Positions 1,337 through 35,804 of a DNA stretch of 38,041 nt are shown one piece after another (position 1 is the first letter of the stretch; each line of letters begins with the position of its first letter). The position numbers were made by a program, and so were the translations under genes. Below the pieces are notes generated by a model. The model did not search any database and had not been told where the DNA came from. It saw nothing but the letters and a program-made list of their open reading frames with translations. Source of the DNA: Betaproteobacteria bacterium HGW-Betaproteobacteria-6 (lineage in GTDB: Bacteria; Pseudomonadota; Gammaproteobacteria; Burkholderiales; Rhodocyclaceae); the NCBI GenBank assembly GCA_002842145.1, contig PHCF01000058.1, forward strand, positions 1-38,041, read 5' to 3'.

Positions 1337-1486
1337 TTACGGCGCAATATCGGGATTGCCGTCAGGCGGTGATTCGAAAATTGGCCAAATTTTCCAGTCG
1401 ACCGTAGCAACGCCCTTTTTCTTGTGTTTTTTCAGCTTCGGGCAGTCCTTGCACGGTGGCTGGTGCTTGCAGCATTTTTTGCCCAT
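1337..1486 (-). CDS. 49-aa Cys/Lys-rich small protein with repeat-derived C-terminus
   Basis: This ORF is too short for most gene callers but has a near-ideal GGAGG site 5 bases before its ATG. Its first 24 residues, beginning MGKKCCKHQPPCKDCPKLKK, carry a CC-x5-C-x2-C pattern (C5, C6, C12, C15) in a strongly basic context, suggestive of metal or nucleic-acid binding. The start lies 12 bases after the cupin stop, so it is probably the last gene of the tpx-cupin cluster. Residues 26-38, roughly VATVDWKIWPIFE, are encoded by copy 1 of the 39-bp dispersed repeat, so the original C-terminus seems to have been replaced. I believe similar small CC/CxxCP proteins exist in proteobacteria but assign no function. 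Confidence 0.7.
   Translation of the reverse strand: MGKKCCKHQPPCKDCPKLKKHKKKGVATVDWKIWPIFESPPDGNPDIAP
1373..1411 (-). repeat. 39-bp dispersed repeat, copy 1
   Basis: On the minus strand it begins GTTGCTACGGTCGACTGG and ends with an AT-rich half around GGCCAA. It lies inside the coding sequence of the 49-aa protein and is translated in frame. It diverges from the other copies mostly in the A-rich half. Confidence 0.85.
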
Positions 1487-1498
1487 GGCGGCCTCCGC

Positions 1499-1777
1499 TC
1501 AGTTCCGTCGTGCCACCCAATAGGTGGCGCCAATGTTGCCGTAGCGTTCGGCATGTGCGACGTCGCGGGCCAGCTCAAAACTGTCGCCGACCTTGAGATG
1601 CCGTGTGTCGTCACCGACGGTCAGCCACATTTCGCCGCGCACGACCCGGGCCTTTACGGCGAACGGGTGAGTGTGCGCATCGAGCACGGCGTCGGCCGGC
1701 CAGCTACGTTCAAGCACCTCGTCGAATCCTTCGGCGAGGGCTTGGGCCTGGAATTCAGCGAAGGTGCCCGAGGCCAT
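1499..1777 (-). CDS. Small cupin-domain protein
   Basis: A single-domain cupin of 92 residues. The middle reads AHTHPFAVKARVVRGEMWLT, matching cupin motif 1 (two histidines, then a Gly-containing turn), followed by GDSFELARDVAHAERYG for motif 2 with a third histidine. This suggests a metal-binding beta-barrel; no enzyme activity can be assigned. It starts 8 bases after the tpx stop and is followed 12 bases later by the 49-aa Cys-rich gene, so the three are probably co-transcribed. Next to a peroxidase, a role in stress response or small-molecule sensing is possible but is only inference. Confidence 0.85.
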   Translation of the reverse strand: MASGTFAEFQAQALAEGFDEVLERSWPADAVLDAHTHPFAVKARVVRGEMWLTVGDDTRHLKVGDSFELARDVAHAERYGNIGATYWVARRN

Positions 1778-1785
1778 GTTTCAAC

Positions 1786-2286
1786 TCAGAGGGCAGCCAG
1801 CGCTGCGGCGTAATCGGGTTCGTTCTTGATTTCGCTGACCAGTTCGCTGTGGATGACCTTGTCGTTTTCATCAAGGACGACAACGGCGCGGGCGGTCAGC
1901 CCGGCAAGCGGGCCGCTGGTGATGGCGACGCCGTAGGCTTCTACGAATTCGCGGCCGCGCAGGGTGGACAGCGTGACGACATTGTCTAGACCTTCAGCGC
2001 CGCAAAAGCGGGCCTGGGCAAAGGGCAGGTCGGCCGAGATGCAGAGCACGATGGTGTTGGGCAGTGCGTTGGCCTTGGCGTTGAACTGGCGGACGGACAT
2101 CGCGCAGGTCGGCGTGTCGATGCTCGGGAAAATGTTGAGGATCTTGCGTTTGCCGGCGAAGCTGGCGAGGGTGACGTCGGAGAGATCCTTGGCGACCAGC
2201 GAGAAGGCCGGGGCGGTATCGTCCTTCTGCGGGAATTGGCCGGCGATGGTGATGGCGTTGCCGCCGAGGGTGACGCTCTGGGTCAT
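1786..2286 (-). CDS. tpx: Thiol peroxidase (atypical 2-Cys peroxiredoxin)
   Basis: 166 residues, the family length. Tpx reduces H2O2 and alkyl hydroperoxides using thioredoxin. The peroxidatic cysteine is C61 in [17 protein letters not shown] and the resolving cysteine is C95 in [12 protein letters not shown], the same positions as in E. coli Tpx. The ATG at 2286 is chosen because [10 protein letters not shown] is the family start and AAGGAAAA lies just upstream; an in-frame codon at 2319 would add 11 atypical residues. The leader contains a small GCCCC/GGGGC stem (2313-2330). A 30-aa ORF lies upstream, and the cupin and Cys-rich genes lie downstream on the same strand. Confidence 0.97.
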
Positions 2287-2350
2287 GGTTTTCCTTGAAG
2301 TTGAGTTGGGAGGCCCCATTCGACGGGGGCGCTCCGTTTTGGTTCATTGC

Positions 2351-2443
2351 TCAGAAGTTGTCGGGCAGGGTTGCCAGGATGTCGACGCACGCTTTCCAGG
2401 CTGAGAGTTCGTCGAACCAGCGATCAATGAAATTCGAAATCAT
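2351..2443 (-). CDS. 30-aa small ORF ahead of tpx
   Basis: An ORF that begins MISNFIDRWFDELSAWKACV and continues for another ten residues to a TGA. It has a consensus AGGAGG six bases before the ATG, better than that of tpx itself. The peptide looks like an amphipathic helix with several Trp/Phe and acidic residues and a single Cys. It lies 64 bases upstream of the tpx start on the same strand and downstream of the likely promoter region. It could be a real microprotein or a translated leader that affects tpx expression. I recognise no family. Confidence 0.5.
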   Translation of the reverse strand: MISNFIDRWFDELSAWKACVDILATLPDNF

Positions 2444-2515
2444 GGCGGCCTCCTGAAGTGGTCCGGGTCGTGATGACCTGATGGCCTCAGTGTAGGCAGC
2501 GCTGGCTTATTGATC

Positions 2516-2525
2516 CAATCGATTG
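2516..2525. promoter_or_regulatory. CAATCGATTG palindrome ahead of the tpx cluster
   Basis: A perfect 10-bp palindrome. On the minus strand it is followed by sequence resembling a promoter (TTGGAT, 18 bases, TACACT) that would drive the 30-aa ORF and tpx. The same palindrome with similar flanks occurs at 4546-4555 upstream of the ZIP transporter, so it may be a shared operator. The regulator is unknown. Confidence 0.35.
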
Positions 2526-2563
2526 ATTGAATGTGGTGGATTGGAATTGCCTATCGCGCCGAC

Positions 2564-2589
2564 AAGAAAAACGCCGGCGAACCGGCGTT
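2564..2589 (-). terminator. Rho-independent terminator of plsY
   Basis: On the minus strand an 8-bp perfect stem (AACGCCGG / CCGGCGTT) with a TTCG tetraloop is followed at once by TTTCTT. It lies 18 bases past the plsY stop and insulates the tpx cluster from plsY transcription. Confidence 0.85.
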
Positions 2590-2607
2590 ATCGTGGCGCG
2601 GCTTGCC

Positions 2608-3216
2608 TCAAGCCTTTTTCTTGCTGCCGATCTTCGATTCCTGGCCGGCCAGCAGGCGCTGGATGTTTTGCCAATGCTTGCCAATCAGGGCCATGGCGAT
2701 GATGCCGACGACGATGGTCTGGCCGTTGCCGCCGTGCATCAGCCCGGAAAAGACCGGGGCCAGGCCGGCGGCGACGACGGCAGCGAGTGAGGAATAACGG
2801 ACGGCGTAGGCGATGAGCAGCCAGGTGCCGGCGACGGCCAGGCCGAGTAGCGGGTCGAGGGCAATGAGAACGCCGGCGGCGGTGGCGACGCCCTTGCCTC
2901 CCTTGAACTTGAGGAAAATAGGGTAGAGATGGCCGAGGAAAACGGCGAGCCCGACGAGGCCGATGACGGTGCTGGAAAAGCCCATCTGCTGCGCGATGAA
3001 GACGGCGGCCCAGCCCTTGAGCGCATCGCCGATCAGCGTCAATAACGCGGCCTTTTTGTTGCCGCTGCGCAGGACGTTGGTGGCGCCCGGATTGCCCGAA
3101 CCGTAGCTGCGCGGGTCGGCCAGTCCGAACAGCTTCGACGAAATCATCGCGAAGGGAACTGAGCCGAGCAGGTAGGCGGCGAGCAGGGCCAGAAGCGGAG
3201 CAAGGGCGTTTTGCAT
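2608..3216 (-). CDS. plsY: Glycerol-3-phosphate acyltransferase PlsY
   Basis: 202 residues. PlsY is an inner-membrane enzyme that transfers the acyl group from acyl-phosphate to glycerol-3-phosphate, the first step of phospholipid synthesis, and works after PlsX. The protein is very hydrophobic with about five membrane segments. It carries the family motifs SGNPGATNVLR near residues 38-48 and FKGGKGVATAAG near residues 100-111. The ATG at 3216 (MQNALAPLLALLAAYLLGS) is used because the upstream in-frame extension is not membrane-like. It is divergent from folB with a short shared promoter region and ends in a strong terminator. The gene looks intact. Confidence 0.95.
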   Translation of the reverse strand: MQNALAPLLALLAAYLLGSVPFAMISSKLFGLADPRSYGSGNPGATNVLRSGNKKAALLTLIGDALKGWAAVFIAQQMGFSSTVIGLVGLAVFLGHLYPIFLKFKGGKGVATAAGVLIALDPLLGLAVAGTWLLIAYAVRYSSLAAVVAAGLAPVFSGLMHGGNGQTIVVGIIAMALIGKHWQNIQRLLAGQESKIGSKKKA

Positions 3217-3237
3217 GGTTGGAGTCGGTCGCTGGGG

Positions 3238-3257
3238 TACAATCGCGGCGGATTTTA
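3238..3257. promoter_or_regulatory. Face-to-face -10 boxes of folB and plsY
   Basis: TACAAT at 3238-3243 on the plus strand would start folB transcripts near 3250. TAAAAT on the minus strand, covering 3257-3252, would start plsY transcripts near 3245. The two putative start regions overlap, so the two promoters may interfere. No good -35 is seen for either. Confidence 0.35.
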
Positions 3258-3271
3258 CACCCGACCGCCAA

Positions 3272-3508
3272 ATGGACATTATTTTCCTCGACGAACTGCG
3301 CGATACGGTGGATTACGCTGTGGTCGTTGACCGGTTGCGTGCCGACCTGGCTGCCGTGCATTTCAACCTGATCGAGGCGTTGGCCGAGCACGTGGCGAGC
3401 TACGTGCTGGAGACCTTTGCCGTGCACTGGGTGCGTGTCTCCGTCGCCAAGCTCGGCATGATGCCGGGCGTCAAGCGCGTCGGCGTTATTATCGAACGCT
3501 CGCTCTAA
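3272..3508 (+). CDS. folB: Dihydroneopterin aldolase FolB, internally deleted
   Basis: FolB cleaves 7,8-dihydroneopterin to 6-hydroxymethyl-dihydropterin and glycolaldehyde in folate synthesis. Family members are about 115-122 residues, but this ORF has 78. The first nine residues (MDIIFLDEL) are the normal N-terminal strand, and the text then jumps to RDTVDYAVVVDRL, which belongs near residue 50. The remainder, LIEALAEHVASYVLETF to VGVIIERSL, is a normal C-terminal half with the conserved SVAKLGMMPG lysine. About 40 residues, including the region of the catalytic glutamate (GVYxWE in the family), are therefore missing in frame. The identity is clear, but activity is doubtful. Either the deletion is real and another aldolase serves folate synthesis, or this is an assembly fault. 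Confidence 0.85.
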   Translation: MDIIFLDELRDTVDYAVVVDRLRADLAAVHFNLIEALAEHVASYVLETFAVHWVRVSVAKLGMMPGVKRVGVIIERSL

Positions 3509-3528
3509 GCGCCTGGTTGGCCTCGCTT

Positions 3529-3564
3529 CGCCCCTCACCCGAGGGCGAGGGGCGTTTCAATTTT
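3529..3564 (+). terminator. Terminator after folB
   Basis: An 8-bp stem CGCCCCTC / GAGGGGCG with a 10-base loop is followed by TTTCAATTTT. The T-rich tail is the edge of repeat copy 6, so the dispersed repeat supplies part of the terminator. Confidence 0.6.
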
Positions 3565-3593
3565 GGCCGTTTTTCCCGGTTGACCGTGGGAGC
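3555..3593 (-). repeat. 39-bp dispersed repeat, copy 6
   Basis: On the minus strand it contains CCACGGTCAACCGGG, then AAAAACGGCC and AAAATTGAAA. It lies between the convergent folB and ZIP genes, 23 bases past the ZIP stop and in ZIP orientation. The first six bases are diverged from the consensus. Confidence 0.8.
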
Positions 3594-3616
3594 CGCCGTC
3601 CCCGACTAAATCCGGC

Positions 3617-4492
3617 TCAAAAAGCTGCCGCGAGCACCGTCATCACGGCAAAGCCCGTAGCCAGACCTGCCGTTCCGGCACCCACCCGGCCCGGCCTGTG
3701 CGAGGCCGGAATCATTTCGTGGCTGACCACCCAGAGCATCGCCCCGGCCGCTACGGCGAGTGCCATCGGCAAGGCGGCGCCGGCCAGTGTGCTGGCGATT
3801 ACGCCGAACAAGCCGCCCACCGGTTCGACCAGCCCGGTGCCCAGCGCGATCAAGGCGGCCCGCCACGGCGAGGCCCCGAGCGCCACCATGGCGCTGGCGA
3901 CGATCCAGCCCTCCGGGATGTTCTGCAAGGCGATGCCGAGACTCATGCCGTGGTCGGCGCCCGCCGCCGCGGCGACGCCCACCGCCAAGCCTTCCGGCAC
4001 GTTGTGGATGGCGATGGCGGCGACGACGAGGGCGACGTTGGGCCGCATGCCGCTGCTTTCGACTTCTTCGACATGCTCGTGCGGAAAGCGGCGATCGAGC
4101 ATCTGCATGGCGGCGACGCCGGCCAGCAAGGCTGCTGCGGTGACGAGGCCGAGCGACCACGCGGCGCTGCTGGCCATTACCGTCTGCACGGCCGGGACGA
4201 GAAGCGAGAAGAGGCTGGCGGCGAGCATCATGCCGCCGGCCAGGCCGAGCATCGGGGCCATCAGGCGCTCCGACGGACGGCGGAGCAGGAGTACGGGAAT
4301 GGCGCCAAGACCGGTCGCCGCACCCGCTAGCAGACTGGCTTGGAGACCTTGGGCGGCCATCGGGTGGGCAGCCAGCCAGTGGATCGCCTGCTCGATGCCG
4401 AAGACGACGGCGACAACGGCCATCGCGATGCCGATCCAGAGGTGGCGGCGGGCGGTCGGCCGGGCGTAGTGCTGGATAACGAGTTGGGTCAT
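3617..4492 (-). CDS. ZIP-family divalent metal transporter
   Basis: 291 residues and polytopic. ZIP proteins move Zn2+, Fe2+ or Mn2+ into the cytoplasm. The two metal-site helices are visible as IAIHNVPEGLAVGV and ALQNIPEGWIVA, and a third conserved histidine motif, SHEMIPASH, lies near the C-terminus. A short histidine/acid-rich loop (HEHVEEVE) lies between the membrane segments. The HNVPEG/NIPEG pattern resembles the GufA/ZupT branch, but the exact metal cannot be read from sequence. The ATG at 4492 has a GGAGCG site. It stands alone after ybaK with its own upstream region, which carries the CAATCGATTG palindrome. Confidence 0.9.
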   Translation of the reverse strand: MTQLVIQHYARPTARRHLWIGIAMAVVAVVFGIEQAIHWLAAHPMAAQGLQASLLAGAATGLGAIPVLLLRRPSERLMAPMLGLAGGMMLAASLFSLLVPAVQTVMASSAAWSLGLVTAAALLAGVAAMQMLDRRFPHEHVEEVESSGMRPNVALVVAAIAIHNVPEGLAVGVAAAAGADHGMSLGIALQNIPEGWIVASAMVALGASPWRAALIALGTGLVEPVGGLFGVIASTLAGAALPMALAVAAGAMLWVVSHEMIPASHRPGRVGAGTAGLATGFAVMTVLAAAF

Positions 4493-4545
4493 GGTGGCGC
4501 TCCGTTGTCTTGAGCGTCACTTTACGGACTGCAGTCCTATAGTGC

Positions 4546-4555
4546 CAATCGATTG
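4546..4555. promoter_or_regulatory. CAATCGATTG palindrome ahead of the ZIP gene
   Basis: The second copy of the palindrome at 2516-2525. Read on the minus strand, the match extends on both sides (CATT-x-AA-x-x before it; G and scattered bases after it), giving roughly 27 identities over 40 positions by eye. It lies 54 bases upstream of the ZIP start. It may be a binding site for a common regulator of tpx and metal uptake (inference). Confidence 0.35.
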
Positions 4556-4583
4556 CTTAAATGCTGTCGATTGTTGTTGGCAA

Positions 4584-5075
4584 TCATCCCTTGAGTGCAG
4601 CCTCGACCACTTTCGGGTGCAGGGCGCGCAGGATGTCGTGCGGATGGATGCCGACCAGAAAGCCGCGCCGGCCGCCGTTGATGTAGATGAGCGGCAGGTC
4701 GAGGATGGTTTTTTCGATATGCACGGGCATTGCCTTCTTGGTGCCGAACGGGCTGGTGCCGCCGACCAGGAAGCCGGTGTGGCGGTTGGCCACCTCCGGC
4801 TTGCACGGCTCGACCTTCTTGCAATTGATCTGGCGCGCCAGATCCTTGGTCGACACCTTGCAGTCGCCGTGCATGAGCACGATGAGTGGCTTGGCGTTCT
4901 CGTCCTCGAAAACCAGGGTTTTGACGACGGCGTGTTCATCGACGTTGAGTTCGCGCGCCGACACCTTGGTGCCGCCGTGTTCCTCGTAGTCGTAGAGATG
5001 GGTTGAAAAAGCCACCTTGTTCGCCTTGAGGAACTTGGTGGCCTGGGTTTCGGGGGCGTGTTCGGTTTTGCTCAT
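4584..5075 (-). CDS. ybaK: Cys-tRNA(Pro)/Cys-tRNA(Cys) deacylase YbaK
   Basis: 163 residues. YbaK/EbsC hydrolyses cysteine mis-attached to tRNA(Pro). Family features are the lysine in VVKTLVFED (K52), the GGTSPFGTKK loop and the GRRGFLVGIHPHDI segment near the end. The ATG at 5075 (MSKTEHAPET) is preferred, because the upstream in-frame extension to 5111 would overlap xerD and is unlike the family. The start is 10 bases from the xerD stop on the same strand, so it is probably in the same transcript as ogt-xerD. No strong ribosome binding site is visible. Confidence 0.93.
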   Translation of the reverse strand: MSKTEHAPETQATKFLKANKVAFSTHLYDYEEHGGTKVSARELNVDEHAVVKTLVFEDENAKPLIVLMHGDCKVSTKDLARQINCKKVEPCKPEVANRHTGFLVGGTSPFGTKKAMPVHIEKTILDLPLIYINGGRRGFLVGIHPHDILRALHPKVVEAALKG

Positions 5076-5085
5076 GGCTGAAATT

Positions 5086-6006
5086 TTAACCGCGTGGATG
5101 ATGCACTGCATGTAGCGTCTTCAGCCGTTCGCGGGCGACATGGGTGTAAATCTGCGTCGTCGAAATGTCGGCGTGGCCGAGCAGCAGTTGCACGACGCGC
5201 AGGTCGGCGCCGTGGTTGAGCAGGTGGGTGGCGAAGGCGTGGCGCAGGACGTGCGGAGAGAGTTTTTCCGGGGCAATCCCGGCAATCAGGGCGTAGCGCT
5301 TGATGAGTTGCCAGAAGGCCTGGCGGGTCATGGCGCCGCCGCGTGCGGTGACGAACAGGTCGTCGCTTTGCTGGCCGTTGAGGATGTTCGGCCGGGCCTC
5401 GTCGAGGTAGCGCTGAATCCACTCGATGGCCAACTGGCCGAGCGGCACCAGCCTTTCCTTGCTGCCCTTGCCGAGCGCACGCAAGACGCCGTCGGCGAGG
5501 CTGACTTCGTGCAGGCGGAGGCCGACCAACTCGGAGACGCGAAGTCCCGTGGCGTAGATCGTTTCGAGCATGGCGCGGTCGCGCAGCCCGAGTAAGCTGT
5601 CGAGATCGGGCGCGGCAAGCAGGGCTTCGACCTGTTTTTCCGACATGACCTTGGGCAGGCGTGACGGACGGTTCGGGTTGGCCAGCTTGAGCGTCGGGTC
5701 GGCGACAATGCGGCCGCGGCCGAGCTGCCAGCGGTAGAAGCGGCGCAAGGTCGACAGGTAGCGGGCTTGCGAACTGGCGCGGGTCTGCCTTGAGAGGTCG
5801 GCGATGAAGCGGGTCAGCGTCGTTTCGCGCAGGTCGAGCAGCGGCTCGTCGGCATTGTTGGCCAGCCAGCCGGCGAGGCGGCCGAGGTCGGAGCGATAGC
5901 TGTCGAGCGTCGCCCTGGCCAGGCCGTCTTCCAGCCACAGGGCGTCGCAGAAATTGTCGACCTCGGCGAGGTCAGCCGTGTTTGCTGGCAGGTTTGCCGG
6001 ATTCAT
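5086..6006 (-). CDS. xerD: Tyrosine site-specific recombinase XerD
   Basis: 306 residues. XerD, with XerC and FtsK, resolves chromosome dimers at dif. All catalytic residues are present with the same spacing as E. coli XerD (offset +8): R156 in ATGLRVSEL, K180 in ALGKGSKER, H252 and R255 in SPHVLRHAF, H278 in LLGHADI and the nucleophile Y287 in QIYTHV. The N-terminal SAM-like core-binding domain begins at FCDALWLEDGLARATLDSY. The start at 6006 overlaps the end of ogt by 35 bases, suggesting translational coupling. The next gene, ybaK, starts 10 bases on. XerD is favoured over XerC by these N-terminal and active-site sequences. Confidence 0.95.
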   Translation of the reverse strand: MNPANLPANTADLAEVDNFCDALWLEDGLARATLDSYRSDLGRLAGWLANNADEPLLDLRETTLTRFIADLSRQTRASSQARYLSTLRRFYRWQLGRGRIVADPTLKLANPNRPSRLPKVMSEKQVEALLAAPDLDSLLGLRDRAMLETIYATGLRVSELVGLRLHEVSLADGVLRALGKGSKERLVPLGQLAIEWIQRYLDEARPNILNGQQSDDLFVTARGGAMTRQAFWQLIKRYALIAGIAPEKLSPHVLRHAFATHLLNHGADLRVVQLLLGHADISTTQIYTHVARERLKTLHAVHHPRG

Positions 6007-6472
6007 GCTTCAGCAGCCAGCGTTTCACGTCAAGCAGGAAACCGCCGCGTTCGCGGGCAAAACCGCCTAGTCCGCCACCGGTGGCGACGACGCGATGACA
6101 CGGCACGACGAGCGGGTAGGGATTGGAGCCGCAGGCCTGGCCGACGGCGCGCGGCGCGTTTTTGAGGTTTTTTGCCAGTTGACCGTAGGTGTCGGTCCGG
6201 CCGCTCGGAATGGCCGAAATCTGTTCCCACACCCGGCGCTGGAAAGCGGTGCCGGCCGGGCGCAGGGGCAGGCCGAAGGCGAAATCCGGGTCGGCCAGAT
6301 AGGCCTTGAGCTGGCGCACGGCTTCGGCGGCGAGCGGGGTGCCGGCGGGGATTTCCGGACGGGGTTCGAGGAAATCGATGCCGGTGATTTCATCGTTGTC
6401 GCACTGCACCCCGAGACAGAAGCCGGGGGCGGCGACAACGGCCTGGTAAGTCTGGTTGGCTCGGGCTTTCAT
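5972..6472 (-). CDS. ogt: Methylated-DNA--protein-cysteine methyltransferase
   Basis: 166 residues. It is a suicide repair enzyme that moves the alkyl group from O6-alkylguanine (or O4-alkylthymine) to its own cysteine. The acceptor is C125 in PYPLVVPCHRVVATGGGLGG. The DNA-binding helix-turn-helix reads FQRRVWEQISAIPSGRTDTY before it, and GGFLLDVKRWLLKHE closes the domain. The short N-terminal domain and the absence of an AraC-type domain point to Ogt rather than Ada. A GGAGG site lies 4 bases before the ATG. It heads the ogt-xerD-ybaK set and overlaps xerD. Repeat copy 2 lies just upstream. Confidence 0.94.
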   Translation of the reverse strand: MKARANQTYQAVVAAPGFCLGVQCDNDEITGIDFLEPRPEIPAGTPLAAEAVRQLKAYLADPDFAFGLPLRPAGTAFQRRVWEQISAIPSGRTDTYGQLAKNLKNAPRAVGQACGSNPYPLVVPCHRVVATGGGLGGFARERGGFLLDVKRWLLKHESGKPASKHG

Positions 6473-6487
6473 GACGCCTCCGTGGTC

Positions 6488-6526
6488 GTTGCTACGGTCG
6501 ACCGGAAAAAATGGCCAAAATTCAAA
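6488..6526 (+). repeat. 39-bp dispersed repeat, copy 2
   Basis: Closest to the consensus: GTTGCTACGGTCGACCGG, then AAAAAATGGCC and AAAATTCAAA. It fills the gap between ogt and gcdH. Its right end overlaps the gcdH stop codon (TGA on the minus strand at 6524-6522), so the repeat supplies the end of that gene. Confidence 0.9.
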
Positions 6527-7697
6527 AAGCCGACAGCCCGGTTTGCGCCCGACCGAGAATCAGCGCATGGACATCGTGCGTGCCCTCGTAGGTCGTCACC
6601 GATTCCAGATTGACCATGTGGCGAATCACCCCGAATTCATCGGAAATGCCGTTGCCGCCCAACATGTCACGGGCGTTGCGGGCGATTTCCAGGGCCTTGC
6701 CGGTGCTGTTGCGCTTCATCAGAGAGACCAGCTCCGGCGTCGCGCTGCCGTCGTCCATCATGCGGCCGAGGCGCAGCGCCCCTTGGATGCCCAGTGCGAT
6801 CTCGCCCTGCATGTCGACGAGCTTTTTCTGGATCAACTGTGTGGCGGCGAGCGGCCGGCCGAACTGCTGGCGGTCCAGCGTGTATTGCCGCGCCGTGTGC
6901 CAGCAGGCCTCTGCCGCACCGAGGGCGCCCCACGAAATGCCGTAGCGCGCCGAGTTGAGGCAGGTAAACGGACCTTTCAGACCGCTGGCCTTGGGCAACT
7001 GGTTTTCGGTCGGCACGAATACATCGTCCATGACGATGTCGCCGGTGATCGAAGCGCGCAGGCTGACCTTGCCGGAAATGACCGGCGCCGACAGGCCGGC
7101 CAAGCCCTTTTCAAGAATGAAGCCGCGCAAGGCGCCAGCGTCATCCTTGGCCCAGACGATGAAAATGTCGGCAATCGGCGAGTTGGTAATCCAGGTCTTG
7201 CGACCGGACAGCTTCCAGCCGCCCGGCACGCTGCGGGCGACGCTGGTCGCGCTGGCCGGATCGGAGCCGGAATCCGGCTCGGTCAGCCCGAAGCAGCCGA
7301 TCAACTCGCCCTTGCCGAGTTTCTTGAGGTATTTCTCTTTTTGCTCGTCGGAGCCGAATTCAAAAATCGGCAACATGACCAGCGAGGACTGCACGCTGAG
7401 CAGCGTCCGGTAGGCCGAGTCGACATACTCGACCTCGCGTGCGATCAGCCCGTAGGACACGTAATTCAGCCCGGCGCCGCCGAACTGTGGCGGCAAGGTG
7501 GCGCCAAGCAGGCCCATCTCGCCCATTTCGCGATAGATCGCCGGGTCCGTCGTCTCGTTGCGAAAAGCGTCGAGGATGCGCGGTTTGAGCGCCTTCTCGG
7601 CGAAATCGCGGGCGGCGTTGCGGACTTGCCGTTCATCGGCGGCCAGTTGGCTGTCGAGGAGGAAAGGGTCTGCCCAGTGGAAGGTCGTTTTCGGCAT
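6522..7697 (-). CDS. gcdH: Glutaryl-CoA dehydrogenase
   Basis: 391 residues, the usual GcdH length. It is an FAD enzyme that oxidises and decarboxylates glutaryl-CoA to crotonyl-CoA in lysine, tryptophan and (anaerobic) aromatic degradation. The GcdH-type start [13 protein letters not shown], the FAD-binding block [15 protein letters not shown] followed by [11 protein letters not shown], and the C-terminal [19 protein letters not shown] with catalytic base E371 support this over a general acyl-CoA dehydrogenase. The start is 4 bases after the bacteriohemerythrin stop, implying coupling, and no clear ribosome binding site is seen. The stop codon lies within repeat copy 2. Confidence 0.92.
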
Positions 7698-7701
7698 GGG
7701 T

Positions 7702-8160
7702 TTATTTGAAGAAACGAGCGAACCAGCCTTTCGTTTCTTTCTTGGTCTCCTTTTCTTTAATAAGCGAGATCATATTCGTCTTCACCGCCGCGACATAGTC
7801 CGCATCGTCATGTTTGATGTGGCTGACCAGCCAGCGGGCAAGCATGTTGTGCAGTTCGACGCCGATTTCCTCGCCCAGATCGATGCGCTCCTGGTATTCG
7901 CCGACCTTGCGGGTGAACAACTCATGGACGCGCTTGTGCGCCTTGACGTACTGGTAGCCGGCGTCTTCCTGCAGGCTCTCTTCGAAGGCGAAATGCGACA
8001 GGGTGTAGGCCACGCAGGCATCGACGATTTCCCGGGTCTTGCGTTGGTCACCAACGGCATTGGCGGCTTCTAGCTTGTTGATGAATTCGACGATTTGCCG
8101 GTGTTGCTGGTCGATGACATTGATGCCGGTGTCAAGATCGGCTTTCCAGGTGATGGGCAT
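7702..8160 (-). CDS. Bacteriohemerythrin
   Basis: 152 residues, a four-helix bundle that binds O2 at a di-iron site. All ligands are visible in canonical spacing: H20 ([10 protein letters not shown]), H56 and E60 (SHFAFEES), H75 and H79 (HKRVHELF), H114 and D119 ([10 protein letters not shown]). The start [20 protein letters not shown] is typical of stand-alone bacteriohemerythrins, which also rules out the longer in-frame ORF. A Lys/Glu-rich tail ends in GWFARFFK. It could store or deliver O2, or sense it, in a microaerophile. It is upstream of and nearly fused to gcdH, an unusual pairing with no known functional link. Confidence 0.95.
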
Positions 8161-8255
8161 GACGAGGCCTTTTTCGGGGGGCAAAAATGGCGTCGATTTT
8201 ATGACAAATATGAAAACATATGCCAGCGTCGTGCTGGTTGGCTGGCCCGCGGCCA

Positions 8256-8284
8256 ATAAAAACCCCGGACCAGGCCGGGGTTTG
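8256..8284 (-). terminator. Rho-independent terminator of proA
   Basis: On the minus strand a 9-bp perfect stem (AAACCCCGG / CCGGGGTTT) with a 6-base loop is followed by TTATT. It lies 18 bases past the proA stop and separates proA from the bacteriohemerythrin-gcdH pair. Confidence 0.85.
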
Positions 8285-8301
8285 CGGGAGCGGTTGGGGA
8301 A

Positions 8302-9558
8302 TCAGCCGCGTACGTGTCCGTCGCCCAGCACGATCCATTTCTGGCTGGTCAGCCCTTCGAGGCCGACCGGGCCGCGAGCGTGGATCTTGTCGGTGGAAAT
8401 GCCGATTTCGGCGCCCAGGCCGTATTCGAAACCATCGGCGAAGCGCGTCGAGGCGTTGATCATGACCGAGGCCGAATCGACCTCGCGCAGGAAGCGCATG
8501 GCCTTCGGATGGTTGTCGGTGACGATCGCTTCGCTGTGGTGCGACGAATACTTGTTGATATGGGCGATGGCTTCATCGATGCCGGCCACGACCTTGACTG
8601 AGATGATCGGCGCGAGGAATTCGGTGTAGTAATCGTCTTCCGTTGCCGCCACGGCGTTCGGCACGATGGCACAGGTTTCGGCGCAACCGCGAATCTCGAC
8701 ACCCTTTTCGGTCAGCATGTGGGCAATCGGCGGCAACAGCATGGGCGCCACGGAGCGGTCGATGAGCAGCGACTCGGCTGTGTTGCAGGTGCCGTAGCGC
8801 TGGGTCTTGGCGTTTTCGACGATTTTCAGTGCCTTGTTCGGGTCGGCTTCTTCTTCGAGGTAAACGTGGCAGTTGCCGTCGAGGTGCTGGATCATCGGCA
8901 CGCGGCACTCGGCCAGCAGGCGCGAGATCAGCCCCTTGCCGCCGCGCGGCACGATGACGTCGACGAATTCGCGCATGGTGATCAGTTCGCCGACGGCGGC
9001 GCGGTCGGTGGTGTCGATGACCTGCACGGCATCGGCCGGCAGTCCGGCGGCTTGCAGGCCTTCATGGACCAGCGCCGCGATGGCGCGGTTGGAGCGAATG
9101 GCTTCCGAGCCGCCGCGCAGGATGGCTGCGTTGCCGGATTTCAGGCACAGTGCCGCGGCATCGGCCGTGACGTTCGGACGTGCTTCGTAGATGATGCCGA
9201 TGACGCCGAGCGGCACGCGCATCTTGCCCACCTGGATGCCGGACGGCTGGTACTTGAACTCACCCATCTCACCGATCGGATCGGGCAGCGTGGCGACCTG
9301 CTCGACGCCGGCCGCCATGTTGTCGACGCCCTTTTCGCTCAGGGTCAGGCGGTCGAGCATGGCGGTTTCGAGTCCGGCGGCGCGGGCGGCAGCCAGGTCT
9401 TCCTGATTGGCGGCGATGAGCGCGGTTTTTTCGCGGCGGATGGCAGCAGCGATGGCGAGCAGGGCGGCGTTCTTTTCGGCGGTCGAGGCCGAGGCGACGC
9501 GACGCGAGGCTGCACGCGCCTGACGGCCGACTGTCTGCATGTAATGCTTGATATCCAT
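8302..9558 (-). CDS. proA: Gamma-glutamyl phosphate reductase
   Basis: 418 residues. ProA makes glutamate-5-semialdehyde from gamma-glutamyl phosphate with NADPH, the second step of proline synthesis. The aldehyde-dehydrogenase fold is complete: [20 protein letters not shown] in the cofactor domain, catalytic cysteine in [15 protein letters not shown], and the C-terminal [20 protein letters not shown]. The ATG at 9558 ([11 protein letters not shown]) is chosen with a moderate GAAGAA site. An in-frame codon at 9648 would place the promoter inside the gene. It has its own promoter and terminator and is monocistronic; proB is not next to it. Confidence 0.96.
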
Positions 9559-9585
9559 GATGTTCTTCGGGCAGGGCAAAGAGAC

Positions 9586-9591
9586 ATTATA
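9586..9591 (-). promoter_or_regulatory. -10 box (TATAAT) of proA
   Basis: A perfect TATAAT on the minus strand, 27 bases upstream of the proA ATG. The -35 is weak (a GTTCCC-like hexamer at about the right distance). Confidence 0.55.
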
Positions 9592-9671
9592 GCGAGACAA
9601 ATAAACGGGAACTTCCAGAAGCGGGTAAACTCTTATCCGCAGTGACAATAGGGCTTTCCGTCGAGGACAAG

Positions 9672-9923
9672 ATGGCTGAAAAATTGATTTTGCCGACCGA
9701 AGTTAAGGTCTGCGCTACGTGTAGTTATTGGGATGGCGAACGGCAGGTTGATGCCGAGATGAAGCTGGTGGTCGTCAGTGAGGAATGTGCCGGCGAATGC
9801 CTGGTGCAGGAGAAGAGCAAGCCCGGCCTGCACGACGTGCGTCAGGAGCATTCCTGTATCTGGGAAGATCTGGAACCGGATACGCCGCCCGAGGACAGGG
9901 CCGCCGACAACAAGGCGGCTTGA
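9672..9923 (+). CDS. 83-aa Cys-rich protein of unknown function
   Basis: A small soluble acidic protein with five cysteines: C14 and C17 in [14 protein letters not shown]39 and C43 in [11 protein letters not shown], and C62 in HSCIWEDL. The paired CxxC and CxxxC motifs plus a late histidine-cysteine suggest a zinc or iron-sulfur site. A GAGG site lies 7 bases before the ATG, so 9672 is preferred over the upstream in-frame start. Its stop abuts the end of holA on the other strand with no gap. It shares an upstream region with proA. I do not recognise a named family. Confidence 0.75.
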
Positions 9924-10878
9924 TTATTTGATTGCGGTGAGGCGCAGGCCGAGCCGCAGGAATTCTTCCCAGATGTTGCCGTGACCGATGCCCTTGGCCA
10001 GTCGGTCGATTTTTCCGGCATGTTGCAACGCTGCTTCAAGCGTTGCGGTCGACAACCGCTGAAGTGCCTTTTTCACCGGGTTGGCGCGCGGCCCCCAGAC
10101 TTTCGCATCCTTGAGCAGCATGTCCACCGGCTTGCCGGCATCCATGCCGGCCCGAATGATGGTCTTCCTGCATCAGGCCGTCCAGCGTCCGCGCCAGACG
10201 GGCGATGTCGCCAGAGAGCAGGGCTTCGCGCAGGCCGTCGATGTCGTAGCGGGCAACGTTGAGCACGGCATCGCGGATTTGTGCCAGCGAGAGCTGGCCG
10301 GCCGGGTAGAGCAGGCCGAGTTTCTGGATTTCCTGATGGGCGGCGAGCAGATTGCCTTCGACCCGCTCGGCGATGAACTTCAGGCTTTCGAGGTCGGCGC
10401 TCTGCTGCTGACGGCGCAGGCGACCGGCGATCCAGCCCGGCAGTTCGGCCAGCGGCGGGGCCATGAGCTTGATGGCGACGCCGGCATTGACTAGCGCAGT
10501 GAACCAGGCAGCCTTTTCTTCGCGCCAGTCGAGTTCGGGCAGGGTGATGAGCAGCAGGTTGTCCATCGACAGGGTCTGGCACCACTGCTGCAGCGCCGCG
10601 CTGCCTTCCTTGCCGACCTTGCCGGTCGGTACGCGCAGGTCGATCAGCTTTTTATCGCCGAACAGCGACATGTTGCCGCCGGCGGCGAGCAATGTTCCCC
10701 AGTCGAATTGCGGCAGCACAGTGAGCACTTCGCGTTCGCTGTAGCCCTGCTGGCGCGCTTTTGCGCGGATGGCGTCGGCGGCTTCGATTACCAGTAGCGG
10801 GTCGTCGCCATACAGCACATAAAGCGGACGCAACTCGCGTTCGAGGTGGCCCGCCAGTTGTTCGCCCTTGAGCAGCAT
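9924..10878 (-). pseudogene. holA: DNA polymerase III delta subunit, broken by an internal deletion/frameshift
   Basis: HolA is the clamp-loader delta subunit that opens the beta clamp. The first 238 or so residues read normally (MLLKGEQLAGHLERELRPLY, then ...IDLRVPTGKVGK... and ...RTLDGLMQE). The frame then changes near 10160, and the C-terminal part continues in another frame as TIIRAGMDAGKPVDMLL... to GNIWEEFLRLGLRLTAIK, the normal HolA end. Summing the two gives about 317 residues against a usual 335-345, so roughly 15-25 residues of the linker before the collar domain are lost and the frame is shifted. As written, the product would end in about 40 unrelated residues. The start overlaps the lptE stop (TAATG). 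holA is essential in E. coli, so an assembly or sequencing fault is as likely as a real lesion. Confidence 0.82.
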
Positions 10879-11405
10879 TACTCGCTGTCTTCTGCCGCGT
10901 CGGGGTTTTTCGGCTTGATGATGCTCAGCCGGCGCATGATCTGGTTGACCAGGTCATTGTTCATGTCGCGCCAGAGCAGTCCTTCTTCGAGGTCCTTGGC
11001 GAGAATGTTTGAGTCGTCGAAGGAAATGTCGCGGGTCAGCGCCACCTCGTTGGGCGGAACCAGCACCTGCCCCTTCTGATTGACGACGCGGAAGCGGTAG
11101 GTCAGTTGCAGCCGGTATTCACGTACGCGGCCCTGGGCGTTGACGCTGAGGATGGTCTTCAGCCGGTTGTCGCTCAGTTGCTGGAAAATGGCATCGGCCG
11201 CCTTGGCGTCCTCGACGATCTCGGTGCTGCCGCTGGCGGTGATGTAGCGCTGCAGCCAGATGTTGACGTCAGCCGTGTCCGGCAGGGCTATGTACATCGT
11301 CTTGTAAGGCAGGTTGCCGCTGCCGACGCCACGCAGATGGAAGCCGCAGCCGGCAAGGGCGGCGGCGAGGACCAGAGCGAACAGCAGGCGGAGCGGCGTG
11401 CGCAT
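10878..11405 (-). CDS. lptE: LPS-assembly lipoprotein LptE
   Basis: 175 residues. LptE is an outer-membrane lipoprotein that plugs LptD and helps place lipopolysaccharide on the cell surface. A lipoprotein signal peptide ends in ALAGC with the lipidated C20, followed by GFHLRG, a hallmark of LptE. The rest is a beta/alpha domain with VREYRLQLTYRFRVVNQKG and a helical C-terminus. The ATG at 11405 gives a proper signal peptide. It starts 10 bases after the leuS stop and its own stop overlaps the holA start, matching the widely conserved leuS-lptE-holA order. Confidence 0.93.
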   Translation of the reverse strand: MRTPLRLLFALVLAAALAGCGFHLRGVGSGNLPYKTMYIALPDTADVNIWLQRYITASGSTEIVEDAKAADAIFQQLSDNRLKTILSVNAQGRVREYRLQLTYRFRVVNQKGQVLVPPNEVALTRDISFDDSNILAKDLEEGLLWRDMNNDLVNQIMRRLSIIKPKNPDAAEDSE

Positions 11406-11415
11406 GTGGCTTTCC

Positions 11416-14091
<2,676 letters not shown>

Positions 14092-14185
14092 TCATCGGTG
14101 ATGAGGGCAAGACAGGTCTGACGCCCGTGCTTGTCAGGGTTCTTTTTTGTTGACTTCCGAGGGGTGAAAACGCTCCCCAAGCGAT

Positions 14186-14263
14186 AAAAAGTGACCGGGG
14201 CGGGCTGATGCGGAGCCTGCACGCTCCGCATCAGCGGGGATCAACTTAACGTCGCCCGGTCAC
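14186..14263 (-). terminator. Two-tier hairpin terminator after the 116-aa gene
   Basis: An inner 13-bp perfect inverted repeat (14204-14216 with 14223-14235, loop of 6) is nested in an outer 9-bp stem GTGACCGGG / CCCGGTCAC (14191-14199 with 14255-14263). On the minus strand the outer stem is followed at once by TTTTT. The outer stem overlaps the stop codon of the 116-aa gene. It is much larger than an ordinary terminator. The remaining gap to leuS (14077-14185) holds nothing I can name. Confidence 0.65.
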
Positions 14264-14610: not shown

Positions 14611-14777
14611 GCTGCTTCTCCTTTACTACGTGTAGCGGTAGCTACTGCTGTTAAGACTGCCTTGTGGGCTAATAGTTTTGGTGCACTGCAATATATTTTA
14701 GGCAAGTATACGTGTGCACTCGATTCCCGTCTGTGAAAAAATGCACGCGATTGTGGTTTTCGTTGTACAAACGCAAC

Positions 14778-14796
14778 TAATTGGTAAGACCAATTA
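14778..14796. promoter_or_regulatory. PdhR/LldR/FadR-type operator (TAATTGGT-AAG-ACCAATTA)
   Basis: A perfect 8-bp inverted repeat with a 3-base spacer that fits TGGT-N3-ACCA, the half-site pattern of FadR-subfamily GntR regulators. The E. coli PdhR box is ATTGGT-N3-ACCAAT. It lies 33 bases before the uvrD start in the uvrD/116-aa gap. A second small hairpin, CCGGGC-CGT-GCCCGG, follows at 14798-14812. Which gene is controlled is not known; the regulator is not in the window. Confidence 0.55.
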
Positions 14797-33421: not shown

Positions 33422-33600
33422 GGTGTCTCCATCGTGGGTGTTATGGGGCCGGCCATGCGGCCGACGGTCTATCGATAAACGCTGATTCTACCCCCGGAAA
33501 TCGGGCTGTCGCTTGTGTGGCTTTTGGTACAGACCCCGGTGTGGCCAGTGATTAAGGTAGCTCCCACAGCATCCCGTGATCATTCAAGGAGAACAGCCAA

Positions 33601-34017
33601 ATGCAAGCCATGCGTGATTTTCTCGACACCCACGACCGCAGTCGCGGCACCTTCCCGGCGCAACTAAGCCAGGATGAATTCGAGATCGTCTTCGCCCAGT
33701 ATGAAACGTCCTGTCAGGCCGAGGGCGTAGCGGCCGTTGCTACGGTCAACTGGAAAAAACGGCCAAAATTGAAATTGGCTCGAATGTATCCAGATGGCGC
33801 CGGCTCACGGCATCGCTTTGGCTGGCGTTGGGTCGCTGAGGTGCTTGGCAAGGAATGCCGACGAAGCGGGACAAAGACAGGAAAACTGGGAAGTTTCCTG
33901 AATCACCGAAGGCGCGTGGTCGCGGGAAGCGCGCAAGTACCCGAGGCGAAGAAAGAACTGTTCGGCGGTGGTCGTCAGCAGAAACAACGAAGCCACGCCG
34001 TGAGCCGCCGACCATGA
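33601..34017 (+). CDS. Small ORF run-on through repeat copy 4
   Basis: An AGGAGAA site precedes an ATG that opens MQAMRDFLDTHDRSRGTFPA and continues with about 24 acidic, helical residues (QLSQDEFEIVFAQYETSCQA) to the repeat at 33736. From there the frame reads through the repeat (AVATVNWKKRPKLK) and on into sequence antisense to the ArsN2-like gene, giving 138 codons. Only the first 44 residues look like a genuine protein; the tail is probably an accident of the repeat having removed the original stop. It is likely a truncated or altered small gene. Family unknown. Confidence 0.5.
   Translation: MQAMRDFLDTHDRSRGTFPAQLSQDEFEIVFAQYETSCQAEGVAAVATVNWKKRPKLKLARMYPDGAGSRHRFGWRWVAEVLGKECRRSGTKTGKLGSFLNHRRRVVAGSAQVPEAKKELFGGGRQQKQRSHAVSRRP
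33736..33774 (+). repeat. 39-bp dispersed repeat, copy 4
   Basis: GTTGCTACGGTCAACTGG, then AAAAAACGGCC and AAAATTGAAA. It is read in the same frame as in copy 1 (VATV-D/N-WK) at the end of the small ORF. Confidence 0.9.
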
Positions 34018-34260
34018 CTCCGCAAACGAAACCAGCTCGCGCCCAAGCCCGCGCTTGCGACAAGAGGAGCGAACAGCGAGCGAACGCAGCAAGCCAAACG
34101 GCTGATGGAGTTCGAGGCCAACGACGGCAACCAAAGCGCCGCCATCGCGGATGCCAAAGAACTGAGGCGGAGATGTGTCCGAAATGTCGGCGATAGGCAA
34201 CGCGTTCTCGGCAAGAAGCGCAGCGACTTCTTTGATCGAGGAAACAGGTTCGATGGTCAT
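33805..34260 (-). CDS. GNAT acetyltransferase, ArsN2-like
   Basis: 151 residues. The acetyl-CoA loop SLAVRSSCRKRGLGRELV and the flanking GALVAVVGLELHQPFGLLRS, LFLLTTTAEQFFLRLGY and FSCLCPASSAFLAKHL match the ArsN2 family, GNAT enzymes often found in arsenic-resistance operons. No other ars gene is here. It lacks a visible ribosome binding site and a terminator. The lower-GC flanking DNA and degraded neighbours suggest it was gained by transfer. Its true substrate is not known, so a resistance role is only inferred from family. Confidence 0.8.
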   Translation of the reverse strand: MTIEPVSSIKEVAALLAENALPIADISDTSPPQFFGIRDGGALVAVVGLELHQPFGLLRSLAVRSSCRKRGLGRELVSFAESWSAAHGVASLFLLTTTAEQFFLRLGYLRASRDHAPSVIQETSQFSCLCPASSAFLAKHLSDPTPAKAMP

Positions 34261-34363
34261 GTAGGGAAGGCTAGCTTAAAAAAGGGGCGCCGCGTGAGGT
34301 GGAGGGGTTAATGCGCGCTCGTTTGATCGGCGTCCTTCTCGACTGTCAGGTTCGGCGTCTGAC

Positions 34364-34820
34364 TCAAATGAACTCCTTCGCACAAGCATGAAGTAGAGTG
34401 AGTCCCTCAACTGCAGGCTCAATAGCCGGAAGCGAATAGAAAGCAACATCATGCATGTACCGCGAGACATAAGGAGCATTGTGGAATGCATTTAGCGCTT
34501 CGACCCAAGGAGGAATCGCCATTTCAAGCTGCGAGCATTCGATTGCTGCAAGTCCCCAAAGCTCCCCAAGGTTGTGACGAACACTTGGTTTTCTAAGCTC
34601 CCTGCTGTTACGCCCAGACTTAAGAGCAATACTCTTCAATAAAACATTCAGCAATATGGCCTAGCAGCAATACGAGAGCTTCGCGTCTTGTTTCATGAGC
34701 GTTCGCTAGCACAAGAGCACCAGGAAGGACCGCAGACGCCACACCGAACAGCGCGCGACGTTCAGTGGGCGGAGAGAACACTAAATCACCTGTTGTGGCG
34801 TGGATGCTGACAGTAGCCAT
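34364..34820 (-). pseudogene. HEPN-like protein, frameshifted
   Basis: Two overlapping frames form one protein. The first runs from the ATG at 34820 (MATVSIHATTGDLVFSPPTE ... REALVLLLGHIAEC) and stops at 34620 after reading FIEEYCS. The second frame reads LLKSIALKSGRNSREL and RHNLGELWGLA and ends at 34364. Removing one T from the TTTT run near 34647 joins them as HIAEC-LLKSIALKSGRN, which is exactly the HEPN-type pattern (helix, then K..LLK-G, then RHNL..LW). The intact protein would have about 155 residues. HEPN proteins are frequent in toxin-antitoxin and defence systems, but this one carries only a loose R-x5-H, so no RNase activity is claimed. No start-site ribosome binding sequence is seen. 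Confidence 0.65.
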
Positions 34821-34832
34821 GTGTCGTGTTGT

Positions 34833-34881
34833 GCCTAACGTTGAAAATCACCAGGCCCGGTTGATTGTCGGGTTGGCAGCC
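34833..34881 (-). other. attC-like imperfect palindrome
   Basis: Read on the minus strand it ends in GTTAGGC, a perfect GTTRRRY integron core site 12 bases before the HEPN start, and begins with GCCAAC. The internal arms (GACAATCAACC and GGTGATTTTC) are partly complementary. The second core site is imperfect and no integrase or second site was found, so this is only suggestive. Confidence 0.25.
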
Positions 34882-34888
34882 AGGCTCA

Positions 34889-35275
34889 TTAACCTTTGAC
34901 CTTCCTTATCATGTGGTCGATGACTTGGCTGTGCTCGTGTTGGGGGCTGAACATGATAATTTCCGCGTCTGCGTCGACCTTTACGTTGTGCGCAGGAGGC
35001 CAGTAGAAGAGATCATTCGCTTTAACAGTTTCTTGCGTGCCATCCGCATTGGTTGTGGTGAGTTGGCCGCGCAGGACGAAGCCCCAATGAGGGCACTGGC
35101 ACAAATTGCCTTCCAGTCCTTGGAACAGCGGAGTCGTGTCTACGCCTGCCGATAGCGTGAAATATTCGCCGCTGATCTTGCCAAATCCAGTTGCATCGCC
35201 GAAATCCGTTCGCTGACGGATTACCGCACCCGGGATTTCCATCCTGACGTCGACATCTTCCTTTGCTATTCGCAT
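34889..35275 (-). CDS. Cupin-domain protein
   Basis: 128 residues. MRIAKEDVDVRMEIPGAVIR opens the protein. The cupin barrel has LCQCPHWGFVLRGQLTTTNA (motif 1 with one histidine) and NDLFYWPPAHNVKVDADAEI (motif 2). The tail reads FSPQHEHSQVIDHM. A GAGGAGAA site lies before the ATG at 35275, which is preferred over the in-frame upstream codon at 35338 that would run through the inverted repeat. An 11-bp inverted repeat lies directly upstream and may regulate it. No function can be assigned. Confidence 0.78.
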   Translation of the reverse strand: MRIAKEDVDVRMEIPGAVIRQRTDFGDATGFGKISGEYFTLSAGVDTTPLFQGLEGNLCQCPHWGFVLRGQLTTTNADGTQETVKANDLFYWPPAHNVKVDADAEIIMFSPQHEHSQVIDHMIRKVKG

Positions 35276-35294
35276 GATCGATTCTCCTCTAGGG

Positions 35295-35345
35295 TAAATG
35301 GATGCTATGGGGACATTTTGTGCAACTAATAACCGCATCCATTTA
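35295..35345. promoter_or_regulatory. 11-bp inverted repeat TAAATGGATGC / GCATCCATTTA upstream of the cupin
   Basis: Perfect arms at 35295-35305 and 35335-35345 are separated by 29 bases. One arm ends just before the cupin ribosome binding site. It could be a paired operator or an mRNA leader hairpin. Confidence 0.45.
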
Positions 35346-35804
35346 AAGATGACTCCTATCCTCGTCGATTAGTTTCCACTTTGAGGCGATGGCAGACAGG
35401 TCGCGCAACGCAATCTAAGCCGAACGGTTGAGATGCCCAACTCGTAGTAACCGACAAAACTGTCCAACAAGCTGGCGGACAGGACAGCCAAAGGTCCATG
35501 TGTCGCAATGATGTTGGGCGTCTGCTTGCATATTGTCGACTGATTCCTGATGACAAACCGGGTGGCATGAATTTTTGGCCGGAATTGCAATTGGTATTTT
35601 GCTGGGCGGTGTTCTGGCGCGTGCGGAACCGCGATCCGATGATTTCGATTTTGGCTGTTTTTTCCGGTAGACCGTAGCAATGCGTCTCGCCGTAGCGCCG
35701 GGCTTTTGTGGGCGTAATTCCTGCGGTATTAAACTCGCTGGCACTGCCGGTCGGTGGCGTGTCTGATTCGCGTTGCCTGGCCGCGAGCAGGGAGGTGGTC
35801 GGTC
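35346..35804. other. Non-coding or decayed stretch
   Basis: No convincing gene was found. A glycine/isoleucine-rich hydrophobic reading (LAGIAIGILLGGVLA) on the plus strand near 35570-35620, without a start, may be the remnant of a membrane-protein end. Repeat copy 5 lies at its centre. Confidence 0.5.
35643..35681 (-). repeat. 39-bp dispersed repeat, copy 5
   Basis: On the minus strand: ATTGCTACGGTCTACCGG, then AAAAAACAGCC and AAAATCGAAA. It is not next to an intact gene end. Confidence 0.88.

Follow-up and report, generated by a model that had tools for sequence, protein, structure and literature searches.

A repeat with an almost invariant core and phased A/T tracts in Azonexus and Dechloromonas genomes is a probable DNA-uptake signal sequence with dialects

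Introduction

Motifs of the USS (uptake signal sequence) and DUS (DNA uptake sequence) type are known from two families alone, the Pasteurellaceae and the Neisseriaceae, as far as the available part of PMC12616744 tells. The bacteria that carry known uptake motifs live mainly in the airways and at other mucosal sites, and the A/T tracts of the USS have a narrow minor groove (both from the accessible portion of PMC7811141). An unusually strong consensus, of the kind typical of young transposons, is called a puzzling mark of USS and DUS in the accessible portion of PMC1626085. Here we describe a dispersed repeat in a 38,041-nt stretch of DNA (contig PHCF01000058.1 of assembly GCA_002842145.1, Betaproteobacteria bacterium HGW-Betaproteobacteria-6), which we call the window. 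Its near-identical copies invite the same transposon misreading as the copies of USS and DUS (PMC1626085, same portion). Our analysis suggests instead that the repeat is probably a DNA-uptake signal sequence of natural transformation in Azonexus and Dechloromonas. With slightly less confidence, we consider it likely that free-living Betaproteobacteria (Azonexaceae) have independently evolved a third DNA-uptake language, of which a single genus holds at least two dialects that exclude each other, besides a third variant.

Results

An almost invariant core is followed by two phased A/T tracts

An earlier note on the window had described a 39-bp repeat in seven copies, and all seven are present. 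Five of them fit a degenerate 39-mer with at most 3 mismatches, and a pattern made of the core and A/T tracts finds 7 sites in the window; 100 shuffles gave no match to either. In the window's own genome, G000 (4.3 Mb, 226 contigs), the 39-mer matched 99 sites at the same threshold (55 forward, 44 reverse) and its reversed control matched none. The dispersed, high-copy family that the note proposed is borne out by these 99 close copies, well above the roughly 20 that it took as a minimum. A sequence-only profile built from 32 copies returned at least 150 matches at E ≤4.1e-10, and a position matrix run on 552,532 bases of G000 found 185 copies, with 0 in shuffled and reversed controls.

When 30 G000 copies were aligned with their flanks, the edges were sharp. 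Conservation extends from about -1 to +39 with little beyond, and includes a G at -1 in 19 of 30 copies and a T at +39 in 24 of 30. The unit is about 40-41 bp long rather than 39 bp, and its essential part is shorter: CGGTCRAC plus the phased A/T tracts. The motif as a whole is an almost invariant core, ACGGTCRAC, and then two A/T tracts one helical turn apart.

Weaker copies in G000 decay unevenly. CGGTC.AC is kept, and the A tracts change to T and hardly ever to G or C. Because a position matrix can favour such a result, we retested the constraint by counting mismatches alone at 80 loci from named genomes, minus the 81 strict copies that had selected those loci, which gave 60 copies with at most 11 mismatches. 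In these copies, which played no part in the selection, tract 1 (columns 20-23) held 160 A, 74 T, 5 C and 1 G, and tract 2 (columns 30-32) held 151 A, 27 T and 2 G. In the GGCC block that separates the tracts, 216 of 240 positions were G or C. With strong copies masked, the 197 isolated cores that were left had A/T peaks at both tract places, and six control words showed none.

The same structure emerged from an evenly spaced sample of genome G065 (20 pieces of 20 kb, 400 kb in all). A de novo search for words standing before two phased A/T tracts returned ACGGTCAA, seen 71 times against 0.6 expected, plus its overlapping neighbours; in the motif-poor genome G056, words of 6-8 bases all fell short of the required 6 occurrences. 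In the G065 sample ACGGTCAAC occurred 93 times against 3.6 expected. For the 114 CGGTCAAC sites of G065 taken with no A/T filter, A/T content was 68-82% at +11..16 and 62-89% at +22..27 from the core start, with lesser peaks at +29..32 and -7..-5. The Pasteurellaceae USS is built in the same way, from a core and, after it, two A/T segments spaced by about one helical turn. Fixed core letters and phased tracts that stay A or T, in either orientation and inside genes or outside, are the constraint expected of a DNA-binding protein and not of an RNA or a mobile unit. We therefore infer that the motif is bound by such a protein.

The motif is abundant in one genus and at chance level in 297 other genomes of the order

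We counted the pattern CGGTCRAC-N4-W5-N6-AWWW in complete genome searches. G000 has 553 sites (267 forward, 286 reverse; control 0). Across 76 genomes of the genus, the count ranges from 0 to 653 per genome, and the reversed control gives 4 in all 76 together. Twelve genomes have at least 400 sites (G000, G065, G067, G069, G050, G002, G012, G078, G079, G017, G084 and G090), and 27 have at most 6. In the rich genomes the motif is thus over-represented in the whole genome and on both strands, as motifs of the USS/DUS type are. The other 297 genomes of the order (300 searched, 3 of them from the genus) have no more than 3 sites each, where the control reaches 6. Because the motif is at chance level in these 297 genomes, the sites are not gene-specific elements; congeners share them, and the conservation across distant genera that the earlier note had considered does not occur there. 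A strict 35-mer matched 97 stretches of named records; the 80 that were listed come from metagenome-assembled genomes titled Azonexus, Dechloromonas, Azonexaceae or Rhodocyclaceae, with a few vaguer titles. Azonexus belongs to the Azonexaceae, Rhodocyclales, in the NCBI taxonomy. Judged by these records and by its kinship within the genus, the window's genome probably belongs here too.

Sites occur on both strands, in genes and preferentially past gene ends

Genes were called by our own codon-usage script, by which gene starts and small genes are uncertain. Copies in G000 were chosen for high score, G065, G056 and G057 were sampled evenly, and the G045 sample consists mostly of contig starts. 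In G000, 39 of 117 intergenic copies lie between convergent genes, compared with 76 of 482 neighbouring gene pairs (p 2.6e-6), which confirms the placement at gene 3' ends described in the earlier note. The note also has copies pointing the same way as the upstream gene, which the copies examined do not bear out: in tandem gaps, 33 copies of G000 run with the genes and 34 against. The corresponding numbers in G065 are 13 and 7.

The 73 sites of the G065 sample comprise 36 in coding DNA (62.2 expected), 35 between genes (8.9 expected) and 2 at fragment edges. Tandem gaps hold 20 of the intergenic sites (6.3 expected), convergent gaps 9 (0.8) and divergent gaps 6 (1.8). For 23 of the 29 sites in convergent or tandem gaps, a gene 3' end is no more than 50 bp away. 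Like motifs of the USS/DUS type, the sites are present in coding DNA yet enriched between genes. The coding sites of G065 prefer one codon phase (phase 2 of the site centre in 27 of 36). At one locus (L098:2502-2578), two copies stand back to back in opposite orientation between convergent genes.

Sites were present in 19 of the 20 sampled G065 regions, which rules out a site confined to one chromosome region. The 12 first regions, of positive GC skew, carry 25 forward and 24 reverse sites, and the other 8 carry 10 and 14. This balance of strands rules out a polar motif like Chi or KOPS in the G065 sample.

Three congeners carry a second dialect

A second pattern, RCGGTCRSC plus the tracts, occurs 245 times in G045, 281 times in G076 and 273 times in G087; the remaining 73 genomes have 0-4 copies each. 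The first pattern has 3, 15 and 11 copies in these three genomes, of which G045 is 74% and G076 85% complete and G087 is 6% contaminated. At four positions where G000 or G065 has CGGTCAAC, G045 has CGGTCGGC (two positions), CGGTCACC or CGGTCAGC, with A/T tracts. The second core therefore replaces the first in three congeners, at some of the same positions. CGGTCRAC and CGGTCRSC are mutually exclusive in G045, G076 and G087 and have a common inner core, as dialects of USS and DUS do.

A third variant, TACGGTCGAC, with a T-rich second tract, is found in G057. The unfiltered A/T profiles of the G045 and G057 cores are similar to that of CGGTCAAC in G065. The 400-kb sample of G057 also contains 8 pairs of inverted cores that are spaced by 30-32 bp and enclose A/T tracts; these pairs could form hairpins.

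A protein binding the motif could instead be a genus-specific nucleoid or chromosome-organising protein that would bend or bridge the DNA at hundreds of scattered places, most of them past genes. Its role would resemble that of MatP, Noc or H-NS. The core and the phased tracts that stay A or T would suit it, as would sites dispersed over the chromosome and crowded at convergent gene ends. However, the G065 sample shows neither strand polarity nor a regional limit, and half of its sites are inside genes. For a structural protein it would be odd that the copy number ranges between 0 and 653 inside a single genus, and that the core has changed in three congeners, partly at the same positions. We consider a nucleoid protein unlikely, though it is the strongest competitor. 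Some other DNA-level signal, such as the target of a recombinase or of a restriction/modification protein, would agree with a specific, asymmetric, genus-limited core that has dialects. It would be unusual, however, for these targets to be so abundant and to span about 40 bp that include phased A/T tracts, and we think this very improbable.

Sites keep their place and change by substitution

If the motif is an uptake sequence, sites should arise by point substitution rather than by insertion, as USS and DUS do. We compared the position of the window copy that follows uvrD (16987 to 17025, plus strand) in the best 30 of 75 matching genomes. A core stands after uvrD in 10 of the 29 others (G079, G067, G084, G065, G069, G078, G002, G012, G003 and G055), with substitutions in the flanks and tracts and a short insertion in G002. 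The site is recognisable in G090 with an altered core, and G045 and G076 have the core of the second dialect. The 16 remaining genomes have no core after uvrD, and several of them carry different DNA downstream.

Of 208 usable spanning alignments, 182 have a core and 26 do not; 16 more with multi-copy flanks were set aside. A gap of at least 20 occurs in one of the 208, where 32 of 40 columns are gone and the core letters alone remain, which could be a partial loss. Since spanning alignments can miss large gaps, we repeated the test with 300-bp flanks mapped separately. In 171 such comparisons the core was kept in 154 and no core was present in 17, the length was equal within 3 bp in 134, and a loss of 35-45 bp was seen in none. 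Thirteen of the 17 comparisons without a core were also equal in length within 3 bp. The other four differ by -71, -19, -18 and +26, and the -19 case comes from a flank extending into a site that is still present. In motif-poor G056 the core was absent in 4 of 6 comparisons, three at equal length and one shorter by 18 bp.

A further 64 pairs gave no clean empty site. Both sides of these pairs had been chosen for having copies, which inflates the share of conserved sites, and we used the set solely for the absence of clean 40-bp gaps. Length differences of at least 30, in 11 of the 64, are indels beside a retained copy. Selection of loci likewise inflates conservation in G000 and the named loci; the absence of clean gaps is not inflated. 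These data indicate that sites keep their place, change by substitution and originate by substitution rather than insertion.

These comparisons bear directly on the idea of a short mobile repeat, REP/RAYT-like or resembling a miniature inverted-repeat transposable element, whose copies insert at gene ends. Such an element would produce many near-identical copies of constant length with sharp edges. However, precise presence/absence insertions do not occur among the 171 comparisons, half of the G065 sites are in coding DNA, and in six foldings of 3 copies the expected hairpin did not stand out from shuffles. Of the 12 genomes richest in the motif, 6 (G065, G067, G002, G012, G078 and G079) gave no match to the Y1 transposase (PF01797), which is present in several motif-poor ones. 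On the orthologous comparisons and the missing transposase link we reject a mobile repeat as highly improbable. An RNA element at 3' ends (a terminator, a stability element or a small RNA target) would explain a position just past stop codons, but we reject it as no less improbable, because orientation in the tandem gaps of G000 is unrelated to transcription, six foldings (3 copies, both strands) were no better than shuffles (z -0.52 to 0.65), an Rfam search of the window gave no match, and 0 of 19 terminator-like sites in window positions 1-20000 coincide with copies there.

Copies in the window

The first copy (1372 to 1412, minus strand; core pattern 1378-1404), which begins at 1373 in the 39-bp frame, is more diverged, with a profile score of 36.9 bits. 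It lies between two convergent genes, a tsaD-like gene at 307-1329 and a gene at 1499-1777. The second (3555 to 3593, minus strand; core pattern 3560-3586) is just past a ZIP-transporter-like gene (3617-4492, minus strand) and upstream of an acyltransferase gene (2608-3216, minus strand). The third (6488 to 6526, plus strand) covers the stop codon of an acyl-CoA dehydrogenase-like gene (6522-7697, minus strand), and the fourth is the copy at 16987 to 17025, 12 bp past the uvrD-like gene.

A stretch of 2.4 kb in which the script called no gene (33422-35884) contains two copies. The fifth copy (33736 to 33774, plus strand) fits the pattern. The sixth (35643 to 35681, minus strand) has the core CGGTCTAC and hence falls outside the strict core pattern. 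The seventh (20023 to 20061, plus strand), which occupies the gap of two convergent genes, is degenerate with a mutated core; it is weak (19.5 bits, E 2.9e-5) and has no exact fit to the core and A/T pattern either.

Besides these seven, we find two motif sites in genes that the earlier note had not listed. One, at 6159-6185 on the minus strand, is within a gene (5972-6472, minus strand) whose product resembles 6-O-methylguanine methyltransferase by Pfam, and fits both the left half of the repeat and the core and A/T pattern. The other, at 24799-24825 on the plus strand, is in a predicted gene (24224-24931) and fits the core and A/T pattern. A chance origin of the coding matches at 6159 and 24793 was considered and dropped, as both fit the genus-wide pattern and are now counted as sites.

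Discussion

The architecture, spread and dialects of the motif match those of the Pasteurellaceae uptake signal sequences, and we therefore propose an uptake language. The plan of the motif is that found in the USS papers, and dialects are found in the Neisseriaceae, which again leads us to think of an uptake sequence. The earlier note had recognised neither a REP/BIME repeat nor an uptake sequence. The literature that we searched holds no match, which agrees with the note, while the most likely class is nevertheless an uptake sequence, given the core with phased tracts, hundreds of copies on both strands, half of them coding in G065, in-place evolution and dialects. Neither the letters of the motif nor the words 'uptake sequence' together with Dechloromonas retrieved a paper, in a search that excluded most subscription papers and all preprints, and related terms gave no report of the motif among the best-ranked matches. 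In the D. aromatica genome paper (PMC2907700), 'competence' and 'natural transformation' have zero occurrences.

We propose that in natural transformation the motif would be where a surface receptor for DNA docks; a type IV minor pilin is the likeliest candidate. The receptor would read ACGGTCRAC in the major groove, together with the narrow, rigid A/T tracts in phase. Fragments that bear a site would be taken up and recombined more often, and chance mutations towards the consensus would then spread by transformation. Sites would build up in both strands and in genes, mostly where they are least harmful, in convergent gaps and just past stop codons. A shift in receptor specificity would cause sites to be rewritten in place and so give rise to dialects, and loss of uptake would leave the sites to decay.

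Several observations weigh against an uptake sequence. The full consensus of about 40 bp is longer than the USS maximum of 32 nt given in the available part of PMC12616744. Close inverted core pairs, which are common in USS/DUS genomes and act there as terminators, are rare in the G065 sample (1 pair), though the G057 sample has 8. Many features of the motif could also be produced by a structural protein acting along the whole chromosome. ComEC also does not follow the motif. The ComEC family is present in 71 of the 76 genomes of the genus, including motif-poor ones and all 51 of high quality, and controls such as E. coli are matched by the same search as well. The comEC of motif-rich G000 (C145:62001-68000) is divided between two overlapping frames and shows a gap of 70 bp relative to G079, which an assembly error might explain; that of motif-rich G002 carries an interruption of about 33.7 kb (C33:109608-143311). 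Motifs of the USS/DUS type have a specific receptor, ComP or the proposed ComN. Pilins of the GspH/FimT type occur in 69 of the 76 genomes, rich and poor alike. One alignment of pilin candidates from 29 of 30 GspH loci, the remaining locus having yielded none, showed no obvious split between rich and poor genomes, and some of the aligned candidates look like other pilin types.

The motifs of G000 and G002 are fresh, so the loss of comEC there, if real, must be recent. The comEC of motif-poor G082 has an interruption of about 32.5 kb (C1:2218693-2251157) at the position where that of G002 is interrupted. Both inserts are lower in G+C (0.515 in G002, 0.525 in G082), and no motif sites are found inside either. 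The first long frame of the G002 insert is a large serine recombinase, and the insert also encodes a CHAT-domain protein, a type B DNA polymerase, a D5/VapE-like protein and a UmuC-like polymerase. Motif-poor G051 and G018 also have a comEC that seems split or incomplete. The GspH/FimT-type pilin candidates are strongly divergent among congeners.

If the motif is an uptake sequence, its presence in these bacteria of water and soil would show that species-specific self-recognition tags are not tied to animal hosts. The 76 related genomes, rich, poor or dialect-switched, would serve to test how uptake specificity arises, changes and decays. A change in receptor specificity and its genome-wide consequence would be observable between sister species, as CGGTCRAC gives way to CGGTCRSC in place. 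The genus would also offer a new system for finding the receptor of a USS-like motif, and tagging DNA could ease the transformation of these bacteria.

How, then, does the motif compare with known systems? REP/BIME repeats, which go with RAYT transposases, are dispersed, prefer extragenic DNA and lie at 3' ends. The repeat described here has these features in common with them. Unlike REP/BIME, it has no stable hairpin, no empty sites and no link to a Y1 transposase, and half of its G065 sites are genic.

The Neisseriaceae belong to the same class, Betaproteobacteria. Their DUS has eight dialects with a common inner core within the family and is enriched over the whole genome, as here, and some family members lack an obvious motif, like the motif-poor congeners (available part of PMC3630211). 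The DUS differs in being a continuous motif of up to about 13 nt (available part of PMC12616744). It lacks A/T tracts, its sequence is different, and its receptor, ComP, is known.

In the Pasteurellaceae USS, which has a Hin type (AAGTGCGGT) and an Apl type (ACAAGCGGT), an asymmetric core also precedes two A/T-rich segments, named segments 2 and 3. In the Hin type, the second of them is centred 12 positions on (accessible portion of PMC1626085), compared with about 11 here. Hundreds of copies, genic and intergenic, that arise by substitution and not by insertion are likewise common to both (same portion of PMC1626085), as are types per clade and a GCGGT/CGGTC-like core. The motif described here differs in belonging to another class of Proteobacteria with GC-rich genomes, in its core ACGGTCRAC, in its consensus, which spans about 40 bp and includes weaker A/T blocks at -7..-5 and +29..32, and in its lower density (553 sites in 4.3 Mb, versus 1,465 cores in H. 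influenzae). ACGGTC/GCGGTC also resembles ANNNGCGGT, the core of the Pasteurellaceae motif, which would be either a striking convergence or a trace of a common mode of DNA reading by pilins.

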